Assembly: GCA_002694685.1 (NCBI GenBank)
Contig: NZMW01000010.1
Coordinates: 248,001-312,000, forward strand
DNA length: 64,000 nucleotides
Direction: 5' to 3'
Source: Balneola sp.
Lineage (GTDB): Bacteria > Bacteroidota > Rhodothermia > Balneolales > Balneolaceae
The notes under the pieces were generated by a model. It did no database searches. It had not been told where the DNA came from and saw only the letters and a program-made list of their open reading frames with translations. The stretch's first letter is position 1. Each line of letters starts with the position of its first letter. Both the position numbers and the translations under genes were made by a program. Shown here piece after piece: positions 2,457-8,071 of the stretch.

Positions 2457-5285
2457 ATGCCAAGACGCGACGACATCAAAAAAATTCTGATTATAGGCTC
2501 CGGCCCCATTGTGATTGGCCAGGCCTGTGAATTTGATTATTCCGGATCTCAAGCTTGCCGATCGCTGCAGGAAGAAGGCTATGAGATTGTACTGATTAAT
2601 TCGAATCCGGCAACTATAATGACCGATCCTATAATGGCGGATGAGGTATATATGTTGCCTATGACTACCGACTCAATTCGGGAAATTGTAGCCATAGAAA
2701 AACCGGATGCTGTCCTACCAACCATGGGTGGACAAACGGGACTGAACCTTTGCCGGGATCTGGAAAAAGAAAATTTCTGGAAAGAAAATAATGTCAAGAT
2801 TATCGGTGTAGATATTGATGCGGTTGAACTGACTGAAGATCGCCAGCTATTCCGTGACAAGATGGAAGAAATTGGAATAGAGCAATGTCGAAGCCGAACA
2901 GCACAATCACTGCTGGACGCCAAAGAAATAGTGGAAGAGCTTGGCGGACTTCCCATTGTTATTCGCCCTTCATTTACAATGGGTGGTGCCGGTGGCGGTA
3001 TCGTTTGGAATGAAAGCGAATTTGAACGAAAAGTATTACGGGGATTAGAGCTCAGCCCGGTTCATCAGGTGCTTATTGAGGAATCTATATTTGGCTGGAA
3101 GGAATTTGAGCTCGAGCTGTTACGCGATGACAATGACAACGTGATTATCATCTGTTCCATTGAAAACATGGATCCGATGGGAGTTCATACCGGAGACTCG
3201 GTTACAGTTGCACCCACTCAAACACTGACGGATAAGCAGCTACAAAACATGCGTGACGCAGCCATCAAAATGATGCGAAGTATTGGGACTTTTGCGGGAG
3301 GCTGTAATGTGCAGTTTGCAATGGAGCCCGGCTCAGACCGTTTGGTTGCCATTGAGATTAACCCAAGGGTAAGTAGATCTTCGGCACTAGCCTCAAAAGC
3401 GACGGGATATCCGATCGCGAAGGTGGCTACGAAGTTAGCTGTTGGTTATACGCTGGATGAACTGAAGAACCAGATAACCGGCACCACATCAGCCTGTTTC
3501 GAGCCAAGTATTGATTATGTGGTCTGTAAAGTACCTCGATTCAACTTCGATAAATTCCCCGGCGTAGATGAAGAGCTTTCAACCCAAATGAAGGCTGTTG
3601 GTGAGGTGATGTCGATTGGACGAAACTTCCCCGAAGCGCTCAATAAAGCATGGCAATCGCTGGAGGTTGGTCGAGATGGACTCGGAGCCGATGGCTATGA
3701 AGAATTTGATCGAAAAACAGTTCGTGAACGGTTACTGAAGCCTTATTGGGATCGATCCATGCAGATTCGGAATGCTTTCAAAATGGGAGCTTCAGTTGAG
3801 GAGATTGCCGATATCACGAAAGTTGATCCGTGGTTTTTGCAGCAAATTCGCTACATGGTCTCCCTCGAAAACAGAGCCGAAGGTCAGGCACTCAAAGAAA
3901 TTTCAAAGGAAGATTTCTTTGAAATGAAACAAGCCGGATTTTCAGACTCCCAAATTGCTTACTTACTCAGCAAAAGCGGTGAGAAAGTAACGGATAAGCA
4001 AGTCCGAGATCGCAGAAAGGAATTAGACATCACCCCTTCTTTTAAGATGGTAGATACCTGTGCGGCAGAGTTTCCGGCGCAGACTCCATACTATTACTCA
4101 GCCTACGAAGGTGAAAATGAAAGTGAAGTGACCGACAAGAAGAAAGTATTGATCTTGGGAAGTGGTCCGAACCGCATTGGTCAGGGTATCGAGTTTGATT
4201 ACTCCTGTACTCACGCTGTACTGGCTACCAAAGAGATGGGATATGAAGCCATCATGGTGAATTGTAACCCCGAAACAGTTTCAACTGATTTCGATTTTGC
4301 TGATAAGCTTTACTTTGAGCCGGTTTATTGGGAGCGCGTACTGGATATCATCGACCATGAAAAACCTGAAGGTGTTATTCTTCAGGTTGGTGGCCAAACA
4401 GCCCTCAAGCTTGGAAAGAGATTCGTTGAAGAAGGAATTAGGATATTCGGAACAGCATTTGAAATGATCGATTTTGCGGAAGATCGTGGAGAGTTTTCCA
4501 AATTCCTTAAGAAACTGGATATCCCTTTCCCTGAATATGGAACAGCCCATGAAGTTGAAGAAGCCGTAAAAATTGCCCAGCGAATTGGCTATCCGGTACT
4601 TATCCGTCCAAGTTATGTGCTGGGCGGGCAAGGAATGAGGATCGCGGTTAAAGAGGAAGAACTTCGAAAGTATGTGGCTAACATTCTCAAAACTCATCCC
4701 GAAAACGCATTCCTGATTGATAAATATCTGGAGCAAGCCATTGAGGTAGATGTAGATTCCGTCTATGATGGAGACCAGCTTCACATTGCAGGAATCATGC
4801 AGCATATCGAGCCGGCGGGTGTTCACTCCGGAGATTCAACGGCTGTACTTCCTCCTTATTCACTGAGTGATGAGATCATTAAAACGATTGAAGATCATCA
4901 AGAGAAGATTGCCAAAAACATGGAGATTCTTGGATTCCTTAACGTGCAATATGCCGTGAAAGATGATAAGGTATATGTACTTGAAGCAAACCCCCGAACA
5001 ACACGAACAATCCCATTCCTGGCCAAAGCAAATCAGATTCCAGAAGCGGCTATCGGCGTGAAAGTGATGCTAGGAGCCAAGCTCAAAGAATTCGACCTAA
5101 AGTCAAAACTGGAAAACTGGGCTATCAAAGAGCCGGTCTTCCCATTCGATAAATTCCCGGAAGTGAAGAAAGAGTTAGGACCTGAAATGAAGTCAACCGG
5201 CGAAAGCATTTACTTCGCCAAGGATTTCAATGATGATCACTTCAAGAAACCATACGAGTTTAAGAGCTTGTACCTCTCGAAGTAG
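2457..5285 (+). CDS. carB: Carbamoyl-phosphate synthase large subunit, without C-terminal allosteric domain
   Basis: CarB uses bicarbonate, two ATP and ammonia from CarA to form carbamoyl phosphate. Both homologous halves are present: the first begins [20 protein letters not shown] near residue 9, the second [20 protein letters not shown] near residue 565, each with an ATP-grasp domain. The protein stops at 942 residues just after the segment FPFDKFPEV...GPEMKSTGE. Enterobacterial CarB is about 1,070 residues and carries a further MGS-like domain that binds UMP, IMP and ornithine. That domain is missing here, as I recall for several Bacteroidota. No frameshift remnant of it is seen: the stop lies 11 nt before the next element's repeat. 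Confidence 0.96.
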
Positions 5286-5296
5286 CAGGGATAAAA

Positions 5297-5325
5297 CGAT
5301 CGCTGATTTCGCAGATAACACTGAT
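5297..5325 (+). repeat. Left terminal inverted repeat of GxxExxY cassette
   Basis: It begins CGATCGCTGATTTCG (5297-5311), which is the exact reverse complement of 5865-5879. CACTGAT at 5319-5325 pairs with ATCAGTG at 5851-5857. The repeat starts 11 nt after the carB stop codon. Confidence 0.8.
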
Positions 5326-5425
5326 TTTTGTGTGCGTAGATTAAAACTCACGAGTTATTTGTAAGGAAGGACTCTGAAGTTGCTCTAACTGAAAAAAAGA
5401 GCAATTTAAGATCAGGGTACTTCTT

Positions 5426-5839
5426 ATGAACAATTCGGGTAGAATATTTACGAACAAAAATTTCAAATCCAGCAAAATTACGGGTGATATAATTGGCTGC
5501 GGAATGCGGGTTCATTCAGGTCTCGGTCCGGGATATCCCGAAATAATCTATCAGCGGGCAATGGCGTTGGAACTGGATAAAGCGGGGCTTACATTCTCAA
5601 GAGAGGTAAGCATACCGATACTTTACAATGGTATTCAGGTTGGTTTGAGACGAGCTGACTTTATTGTAAAAAATGCCGTAGTTTTAGAACTCAAAGCAAT
5701 TAGTGAATTAGATAAGGGCAACAACAATCAAGTTCTAAATTATTTAGAAGCCTATAATAAAGAGATTGGTTTATTGATGAATTTCGGCTCCGACAGTCTG
5801 CAATTCAAGCGGCTTATCTTAACAAAAGCAAAGAAATAA
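5426..5839 (+). CDS. GxxExxY family protein (PD-(D/E)XK-like fold)
   Basis: The protein has 137 residues, the normal size for this family. The name-giving motif appears as GYPEIIY in the segment RVHSGLGPGYPEIIYQRAM. A later ADFIV...VVLELKA pair fits the D...ExK core of PD-(D/E)XK nuclease-like folds. The family's biological role is not established. It is the only gene inside the inverted-repeat-bounded element at 5297-5879 and shares no evident function with carB or recQ. The ATG start gives a complete N-terminus before the conserved domain. Confidence 0.85.
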   Translation: MNNSGRIFTNKNFKSSKITGDIIGCGMRVHSGLGPGYPEIIYQRAMALELDKAGLTFSREVSIPILYNGIQVGLRRADFIVKNAVVLELKAISELDKGNNNQVLNYLEAYNKEIGLLMNFGSDSLQFKRLILTKAKK

Positions 5840-5850
5840 GAAGATATTAT

Positions 5851-5879
5851 ATCAGTGGAATCCACGAAATCAGCGATCG
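5851..5879 (-). repeat. Right terminal inverted repeat of GxxExxY cassette
   Basis: CGAAATCAGCGATCG at 5865-5879 is the exact reverse complement of the left repeat's outer end. The repeat overlaps a GTG at 5855 that is in frame with recQ. The extra 12 residues this would add are therefore encoded by the repeat rather than by recQ. Confidence 0.8.
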
Positions 5880-5890
5880 AAAAAGACTTT

Positions 5891-8071
5891 ATGATAACTA
5901 AGGCAAAAGAGACCCTTAAAAACACATTTGGATACGACACCTTTCGACCGCTGCAGGAAGAAGTTATTTCTCAGGCACTAAAGAAAAAAGATGCACTCGT
6001 AATTATGCCCACGGGTGGTGGTAAGTCGCTTTGCTACCAAATACCCGCGCTGATATTTGATGGGCTGACTATTGTAGTTTCTCCTCTAATTTCATTGATG
6101 AAAGATCAGGTGGAGCAGCTTCGGGAATATGGAGTCACAGCCGTTCACTTGAATAGCTCGCTATCTCCTGAGGCCTATGGCTATAATCGCCGGCAGGTGC
6201 TTAATGGCAAGGCTAAGATGCTCTACATCGCTCCGGAAACCTTGTTGATGGACAAGACCAAAGAGCTGTTAAAAGATATCCAAGTGGATTTCTTTGCTGT
6301 TGATGAGGCACATTGTATTTCAGAATGGGGACACGATTTCCGCCCAGACTATCGTGAATTAGCCTCAGTCCGTCAGGAGCTTTTCCCAGATGCCGTTTGC
6401 ATGGCTCTAACAGCTACGGCTACTCCGCGTGTCCGAAAAGACATTATGACCACACTTGAGTTTGAGGACTCAGATGAGTTCATAGCAAGCTTTGACCGTA
6501 AGAATTTGTTCTTAAAAATTGCTGATAAAGACGATCCAACTAATCAGGTGCTGGACTTTTTATATACCCGCAAAAATCAGTCGGGAATTATATACTGCAT
6601 TTCTCGAAGGCAGGTAGATGAATTAGCTCAAGAACTGGATGACGAAGGTTATTCAGTGAAACCCTATCATGCGGGACTTTCTGATCGAGATCGGGCTATA
6701 AATCAGCGTAAATTTATTCGGGATGATGTATCCATTATTGTAGCCACCATCGCATTTGGGATGGGGATCAATAAGCCGAATGTTCGTTTTGTGATGCATT
6801 ATGATATGCCACAGAATATAGAGTCCTATTATCAGCAAATTGGGCGAGCCGGCCGTGACGGATTGCGCTCTGATTGTGTGATGCTTTTCAGCTATACCGA
6901 CACGCAAAAGATTAAGTACTTCATCAACAAAAAAGAAGGACAGGAAAAAGAAGTAGCAGAAAAGCATTTGGATGATCTGCTTAAGTTTATCGAAACCAAG
7001 AAATGCCGGCGTATTCCGCTGATGGATTATTTTGGGGAAGAGTATCCGAATGAAGAATGCGGCATGTGTGACAACTGCCTTTCAACGGATGAAAATGTGG
7101 AAGACTACACCATTCAGGCTAAAAAGCTAATGGAATGTATTTCTGAGCTCGAAGAAAGCTTTGGTAAAACACAGGTTGTAAATGTATTAAGAGGTTCAAA
7201 AGCCAAGAAAGTACTCGAGTTAGAGCACGATAAACTGAAAAGCCATGGTTCCGGGAAGGAATGGTCGAAAGATCAGTGGGAGCAATTATCCCGATTGCTG
7301 ATTCGTCAGGATTATTTGAGCAAAGGCGAGCACGCCGAGTTGAAGCTCGAAGATAAATCCCATGCGGTATTAAAAGGAGACGAAAATGTATTTGGCACAC
7401 TCGATCGTACAAGTACGGCAATGAGTACCGAGGAAGCGTCAAGAGTAGCTACTGAAGTTGAGGCAAAATACGATGAAGAACTCTTTGAGATTTTACGTAA
7501 AGAGCGTAAGAAAATGGCTGATGAAAATGGGATCCCTCCTTATACCATTTTCCCTGATACCACGCTTATGGAAATGGCCTATTACTATCCCAAAGACAAA
7601 GAACATCTGCTGCCACTTTATGGAGTCGGAGATGTGAAACTGAAAAAATATGGCTCCCTGTTTATAGGTATTATCAAGAAATACACCAAAGAGCATAATA
7701 TCGAAGCGAAGGAAGAAACGCTTCAGAAAAAGGCAGAAGAATTTGAAAGTGTAGAGACTTACGTTCAGATTGGCAAAGCTTTTAATGACGGTCAGTCTAT
7801 CGAGCACCTTTCTGAGGAGCATGGCGTAAAGGAAGTGACTATTCTAAATCACTTAAAAGATTACCTCAAGGATGGAAACGACTTGCGTATAGAAGGGATC
7901 ACGGAAGCGACATCCCTATCTCTTCGTCAGCAGGATGAAATCATTAAGATCTTTGACGAAAAAGGATCTCATATGCTGAAAGTTGTGTATGACCGTATGA
8001 ATAAGAAAATTGGCTACGATCAAATCAGAATTATGCAGCTATACTTTATGGCTAATGAGGAGAAAGGTTAG
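5891..8071 (+). CDS. recQ: ATP-dependent DNA helicase RecQ
   Basis: RecQ is a 3'-5' helicase acting in recombination and fork repair. From ATG 5891 it has 726 residues. Visible elements are Walker A (MPTGGGKSLCYQ), the DEAH box within VDEAHCISEWGHDFRPDY, motif VI QIGRAGRDG, the Zn-binding Cys cluster (C-RRIPLMDYFGEE...C-GMC-DNC), an HRDC domain around residues 535-610 and a C-terminal helix-turn-helix region after about 640. The frame also extends upstream to GTG 5855, but that stretch is the inserted repeat, so the internal ATG is preferred. The stop overlaps the convergent kinase stop by 4 bp (TTAG). Confidence 0.95.
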   Translation: MITKAKETLKNTFGYDTFRPLQEEVISQALKKKDALVIMPTGGGKSLCYQIPALIFDGLTIVVSPLISLMKDQVEQLREYGVTAVHLNSSLSPEAYGYNRRQVLNGKAKMLYIAPETLLMDKTKELLKDIQVDFFAVDEAHCISEWGHDFRPDYRELASVRQELFPDAVCMALTATATPRVRKDIMTTLEFEDSDEFIASFDRKNLFLKIADKDDPTNQVLDFLYTRKNQSGIIYCISRRQVDELAQELDDEGYSVKPYHAGLSDRDRAINQRKFIRDDVSIIVATIAFGMGINKPNVRFVMHYDMPQNIESYYQQIGRAGRDGLRSDCVMLFSYTDTQKIKYFINKKEGQEKEVAEKHLDDLLKFIETKKCRRIPLMDYFGEEYPNEECGMCDNCLSTDENVEDYTIQAKKLMECISELEESFGKTQVVNVLRGSKAKKVLELEHDKLKSHGSGKEWSKDQWEQLSRLLIRQDYLSKGEHAELKLEDKSHAVLKGDENVFGTLDRTSTAMSTEEASRVATEVEAKYDEELFEILRKERKKMADENGIPPYTIFPDTTLMEMAYYYPKDKEHLLPLYGVGDVKLKKYGSLFIGIIKKYTKEHNIEAKEETLQKKAEEFESVETYVQIGKAFNDGQSIEHLSEEHGVKEVTILNHLKDYLKDGNDLRIEGITEATSLSLRQQDEIIKIFDEKGSHMLKVVYDRMNKKIGYDQIRIMQLYFMANEEKG

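Follow-up and report, generated by a model that had tools for sequence, protein, structure and literature searches.

RAYT/REPIN systems combine a single gene lying between short inverted repeats, with several distinct genes per genome, and an intergenic population of gene-less hairpins; the enzyme is an HUH/Y1 transposase and the REP is a single conserved sequence (PMC3116915). The intervening sequences of 23S rRNA that carry an S23 protein gene are small selfish one-ORF cassettes with pairing ends; they lie inside the rRNA and are excised from the RNA by RNase III (PMC4990558). In the Cas4 family of nucleases, solo-Cas4 has been reported to be inherited mainly vertically (PMC5704561), unlike the cassettes described below, which show turnover. 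GxxExxY proteins form a widespread small family with no known role, and our results offer a testable one, namely that of the enzyme of a minimal repeat-bounded element.

We analyzed a 64,000-nt stretch of DNA (hereafter, the window) from a member of the genus Gracilimonas, in which a 583-bp segment carrying a GxxExxY gene lies between carB (positions 2457-5285) and recQ (5891-8071, with its ATG start at 5891), both on the plus strand. The gene (5426-5839, plus strand) is enclosed by two inverted arrays of 29 nt each, which are 86% complementary and 525 nt apart. The left end (5297-5325, plus strand) consists of three units spaced 9 nt apart, CGCTGAT (5301-5307), CGCAGAT (5310-5316) and CACTGAT (5319-5325), and is the sole array with at least three strict units in the 64-kb window. 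The right end (5851-5879, minus strand) carries, on that strand, CACTGAT (5851-5857), a degenerate CGTGGAT (5860-5866) and CGCTGAT (5869-5875). In agreement with the sequence-only reading of this locus, the ends match at 25 of 29 positions, compared with at most 21 of 29 among 120 simulated versions of the 1-kb region (first-order Markov model), and their outer 15 bp are identical. Deletion of 5297-5879 would leave carB and recQ 22 nt apart, in line with the expected distance of about 20 nt. The AAAA noted outside both ends is indeed present, but it is not a conserved target duplication, because the orthologous cassettes in the relatives G004 and G006 have ATTG on the left; we therefore rejected it as such. 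No target-site duplication was found at the window cassette, and none was evident by eye at the listed hairpin sites. The same reading had proposed a search for further copies of the 29-bp ends, and the genome holds no second copy of the window's end, with up to three mismatches allowed over the outer 20 bases. A gene-less copy of the window's own end type is also missing from its genome, which counts against the mobile-cassette reading.

The assignment of the gene to the GxxExxY family was confirmed by profile matches: the protein is a full-length member that scored 119.6 bits against PF13366 (Pfam cut-off 22) and 126.7 bits against TIGR04256 (NCBIfam cut-off 35). It retains the catalytic D, ExK and QxxxY residues of the PD-(D/E)XK fold, which are invariant or nearly so in sets of 11 and 54 sequences. 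The AlphaFold model (pLDDT 89) adopts a PD-(D/E)XK fold, and its closest solved structure is SSO0001, a Cas4 (Z 10.4 over 98 residues, 3.0 A), followed by matches at Z 7.8 and below; the protein is thus predicted to be a Cas4/RecB-like nuclease. A PDB sequence search gave no significant match, and Cas4 profiles did not match the window protein and matched one relative (L072) weakly (E 8e-5). The dN/dS values, from about 0.04 (G004/G006) to 0.10 (G000/G006), indicate that the protein is kept by purifying selection. No defence-system model matched the window protein. Carriage on plasmids or phages was rejected: 5 of 72,556 plasmids matched an ad hoc consensus-like query, and no phage matched the window protein. 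Among 296 genomes sampled from the phylum, 151 carry a GxxExxY gene.

Between the left end and the gene lies a promoter-like motif, TGTAAGGA-N17-CTAAC (5360-5389, plus strand), whose spacing resembles that of an ECF-sigma promoter. We considered this leader as a part of the mobile element and rejected it, as the motif also precedes other genes and, in G019, a gene-less hairpin. The form TGTAAGGA-N17-CTTAC occurs 17 times in the genome, nearly all at the same spacing (control, 2), and the motif recurs at fixed spacing in the bacterial family of the window. Across the genus, TGTAAGGA-N17-CTCTTAC has a fixed length of 30 nt (window 5360-5389, G000:C10:213994-214023 and about 16 further sites) and precedes several four-helix-bundle genes, the window GxxExxY gene and a RAYT. 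An Rfam search of the leader returned nothing at E 1. Judging from the motif and its spacing, these sites are probably an ECF-sigma promoter regulon.

Next, we compared the carB-recQ junction in relatives (labelled with G-numbers). The window type of cassette, with ends CGATCGCTGATTTC, is found in G000, G004 and G006, and a second type, with ends GATCACAGATT...AATCTGTGATC, in G007, G008 and G003. The proteins of the two types are 44-47% identical and each has its own matching ends; carB is 95-97% identical among G004, G006, G007 and G008, and 94-96% identical to that of G000. In two other Gracilimonas species, G001 and G005, a Y1 transposase gene of the RAYT type (Y1_Tnp, PF01797; L014:3146-3595 and the equivalent place in L013) replaces GxxExxY between carB and recQ, and the right end beside it is of the type seen in the G007, G008 and G003 cassettes. 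The junction holds ends without an ORF in G013 and G021 and a small hairpin of the same end type in G019; it lacks a cassette in G011 and G015, and other sequence follows carB in G002 and G009. The comparison of empty junctions suggested by the sequence-only reading thus gave a divided answer: no clean empty junction was seen within the genus, whereas other genera have no cassette there.

Turnover was also found at further loci. Between alaS and pdhA, G000 and G009 have the gene with its ends, G006 and G008 have the ends as a gene-less hairpin of about 100 nt, and G001, G003 and G007 have the ends around another filling, while G005 has nothing and G002 and G004 have other sequence that lacks these ends. 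In the latter two (L264, L266), the junction is filled by a different repeat, GTCATCCTGAGCG...GAAGGATCTC. Upstream of a SRAP (yedK-like) gene, a cassette is present in G000, G001 and G008, absent in five species, and reversed in G007 and G005, the G005 copy being frameshifted by inspection. Between G001 and G007, the flanks of this locus are 96.8% and 90.3% identical, and the cassette between them is 71% identical and reversed, with the breaks at the arrays. At three Gracilimonas loci, therefore, cassettes are absent, reversed, replaced by a RAYT, or swapped for a relative of 46-71% identity between near-identical flanks. Insertion or excision at the strain level was not seen, which, like the missing target-site duplication, counts against the mobile-cassette reading.

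Gene-less hairpins were found in the genus with the ends of one GxxExxY clade, clade A. The clade-A cap TRGAACRCGGATNA gave 5-30 matches per Gracilimonas genome, often as inverted pairs, and its reversed control gave 0. Among 19 extracted clade-A gene-less hairpins, 13 were 91-109 nt long, five of them exactly 91 nt, and one 91-nt copy folds at -32.6 kcal/mol. At one site, four species (G001, G002, G007 and G009) have the hairpin and five (G000, G004, G005, G006 and G008) have the empty site. Against our best reading, clade-A caps occur in G006 with no clade-A gene present; the only GxxExxY gene found there is the one at carB-recQ. A cluster of four clade-A-type gene-less hairpins, some with near-identical flanks, was seen within about 2.6 kb in G003 (L322, G003:C2:311548-314156). 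In the phylum sample, another cap, TAACCRCARAGNNCRCARAG (arrays TAACCRCARAG...), was present in 61 of the 151 genomes that carry a GxxExxY gene and in 1 of the 145 that do not (p 3e-20). This co-occurrence is trivial in part, as the count includes the arrays beside the genes themselves. Within the family f27, the same comparison gave p 0.016. The genome G245 has 35 matches to this cap with 5 GxxExxY genes, and G195 has 26 with 6.

We also surveyed the ends of GxxExxY genes generally, using loci from the phylum genomes and 80 loci from an all-species scan, with taxa including Planctomycetota, Verrucomicrobiota, Chloroflexota, Acidobacteriota, Pseudomonadota and a Methanothrix. The scored unit was the 7-nt CRCNRAK; arrays of at least three units were counted within 50 nt of the gene, and 172 ORFs in the same loci served as controls, which carry the argument for the arrays because the unit was derived from the same data. 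At least two units on both sides, in inverted orientation, were found for 62% of 176 GxxExxY genes and 0.6% of the controls. Arrays of at least three units occurred upstream of 55% (controls, 3.5%), downstream of 53% (controls, 4%) and on both sides of 37% of the GxxExxY genes (none of the 172 controls), and shuffled flanks gave no such arrays. The units are spaced 8-11 nt apart or at multiples of this, and the identity between left and right ends is down to the background level 5-6 nt beyond the first unit, where a cap, TTAACC or similar, lies.

The unit variants on the left and right of a cassette are correlated (rho 0.84-0.88, permutation maximum 0.34). Cassettes whose proteins are 30-40% identical have a unit distance of 1.58, which drops to 0.23 for those above 80%, and unit similarity increases with protein identity (Mantel 0.38, permutation maximum 0.12). 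Cassettes from the same genome are no more alike than those from different genomes (unit distances 1.38 and 1.11, respectively), and host phyla are intermixed in the GxxExxY protein tree. Thus, the end variants follow the GxxExxY protein and not the host genome. Such covariation of sequences would be expected of a transferable unit or of a protein that recognises its own ends; by itself, it is no proof of binding. Six surveyed GxxExxY genes (L187, L211, L212, L245, L148 and L179) have in-frame stops, which suggests frequent decay, and arrays still lie beside the stop-bearing genes of L148, L179 and L245.

Given the matched inverted ends, the covariation of ends and protein, the gene-less copies and the swapped or missing cassettes, the segment has the look of a minimal mobile element, not of a random gene. 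We consider it reasonably probable that the 583-bp segment is a RAYT/REPIN-like single-gene mobile cassette whose nuclease recognises and cuts its own iterated ends. On this proposal, the inverted arrays of a roughly 7-nt unit (CRCNRAK, at 8-11 nt spacing) could pair to form a hairpin whose loop contains the gene, and the nuclease would recognise the repeated units at its own ends, probably in hairpin or single-stranded form, and cut there. Both the cassette and the shorter hairpins that have this type of ends but no gene could then be moved or copied into intergenic sites, by analogy with the role proposed for RAYTs in REPINs. What the data show is the form of the cassette, its regular pairing of gene and ends, the covariation of ends and protein, gene-less derivatives, filled and empty sites, replacement of cassettes at fixed sites, and purifying selection; that the GxxExxY protein binds and cuts the ends, and that it drives the mobility, we infer. 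The idea, already raised in the sequence-only reading, that a PD-(D/E)XK protein acts on its own ends draws indirect support from the covariation of ends and protein and from the Cas4-like model. That reading had described a TIR-bounded passenger cassette; the inverted ends across phyla and the gene-less, empty, reversed and replaced sites agree with a cassette, but the term 'passenger' probably does not fit, since the ends go with the GxxExxY protein from host to host.

It is possible, although unlikely, that some other enzyme, such as a RAYT/Y1 transposase, mobilises a family of hairpins to which the ends belong, and that GxxExxY is a passenger in the loop. In favour of this, hairpins without a gene exist, and the RAYT-like Y1_Tnp at carB-recQ in G001 and G005 shares its right-end type with the GxxExxY cassettes of G007, G008 and G003. 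However, the variants of the ends track the GxxExxY protein, not the host, over many phyla, and arrays are scarce in genomes without GxxExxY genes.

We also considered whether the arms function at the RNA level or regulate the gene as DNA, for instance as a long-range stem, a terminator or a set of operators, and are kept by selection without being mobile. In favour of this, the ends are inverted, the arms lie near the start and stop codons, and the gene-less copies fold stably; but units iterate within a single arm, the outer boundary is sharp, the gene-less copies are scattered over unrelated loci with empty sites, and conserved flanks enclose reversed and replaced cassettes, so that we regard a regulatory role as improbable. 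Cassettes moved solely by ordinary homologous recombination between relatives, with no activity of their own and with ends that are relics, would explain the missing target duplication. In addition, the tract of high similarity between G005 and G007 runs about 250 bp past the cassette, and therefore homologous recombination fits better for that case. As a general explanation it seems very improbable to us, given that gene-less hairpins are scattered at unrelated loci and that cassettes of 71% identity, in reverse orientation and with their breaks at the arrays, lie between flanks of 90-97% identity.

The same design may extend beyond GxxExxY. Four-helix-bundle genes (PF05635, the 23S rRNA IVP family) number 8-15 per Gracilimonas genome, and their loci (L351-L380, e.g. 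L352, L355, L371 and L365) often have inverted short-period arrays of other units (e.g. TCAGCTA, GAGTGGT and TTAGTA); 11 of 23 such loci exceed the 95th percentile of mismatched pairs for flanking inverted arrays. Tentatively, and with somewhat more doubt than conviction, we suggest that GxxExxY proteins are the enzymes of unrecognised, very widespread single-gene mobile elements found in both bacteria and archaea. In such an element, a minimal nuclease of the Cas4 kind, and not a transposase, would recognise the unit arrays of hairpin ends and spread itself and gene-less hairpins; other small families, such as the S23-like four-helix proteins, may be built on this plan with units of their own. 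Should hairpins indeed be mobilised by a Cas4-like nuclease, REPIN-like elements would have a further, new class of enzyme, and this would shed light on the way in which nucleases of the Cas4 type were drawn into working with repeat arrays.

When compared with known systems, the window gene is a clear member of the GxxExxY/PDDEXK_3 family (PF13366, TIGR04256), with all conserved residues. In the openly accessible literature, searches on GxxExxY, PF13366 and the array sequences found neither a function nor an association with repeats, and what is new is the link between GxxExxY and ends of this iterated, inverted kind. Classical TIR transposons and MITEs leave target-site duplications, which were not found here, and empty sites, which were (the hairpin site filled in four species and empty in five, and alaS-pdhA in G005). 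The 23S rRNA intervening sequences with S23 protein (PMC4990558) resemble the cassette as small selfish one-ORF units with pairing ends, but GxxExxY cassettes lie between protein genes, the window one between carB and recQ. Cas4 proteins, including solo-Cas4 (PMC5704561), share the fold and the QxxxY motif, with SSO0001 as the nearest structure; the window protein is smaller (137 aa) and is encoded outside a CRISPR locus. The likeness to RAYT/REPIN (PMC3116915) lies in one gene enclosed by short repeats in inverted orientation, in genomes with several distinct genes of the kind, and in an intergenic population of gene-less hairpins of similar size. Inverted repeats with dispersed gene-less hairpins are found for the GxxExxY cassettes of the genus, though not for the window's own end type. 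The ends here are arrays of 2-5 iterated 7-nt units, in contrast to the single conserved sequence of a REP, and the enzyme is a PD-(D/E)XK nuclease (PDDEXK_3) instead of an HUH/Y1 transposase, with Y1_Tnp at the junction only in G001 and G005. Because the enzyme differs, the GxxExxY cassette is not a member of RAYT/REPIN, but by analogy it would work like one if its protein does recognise its own ends.
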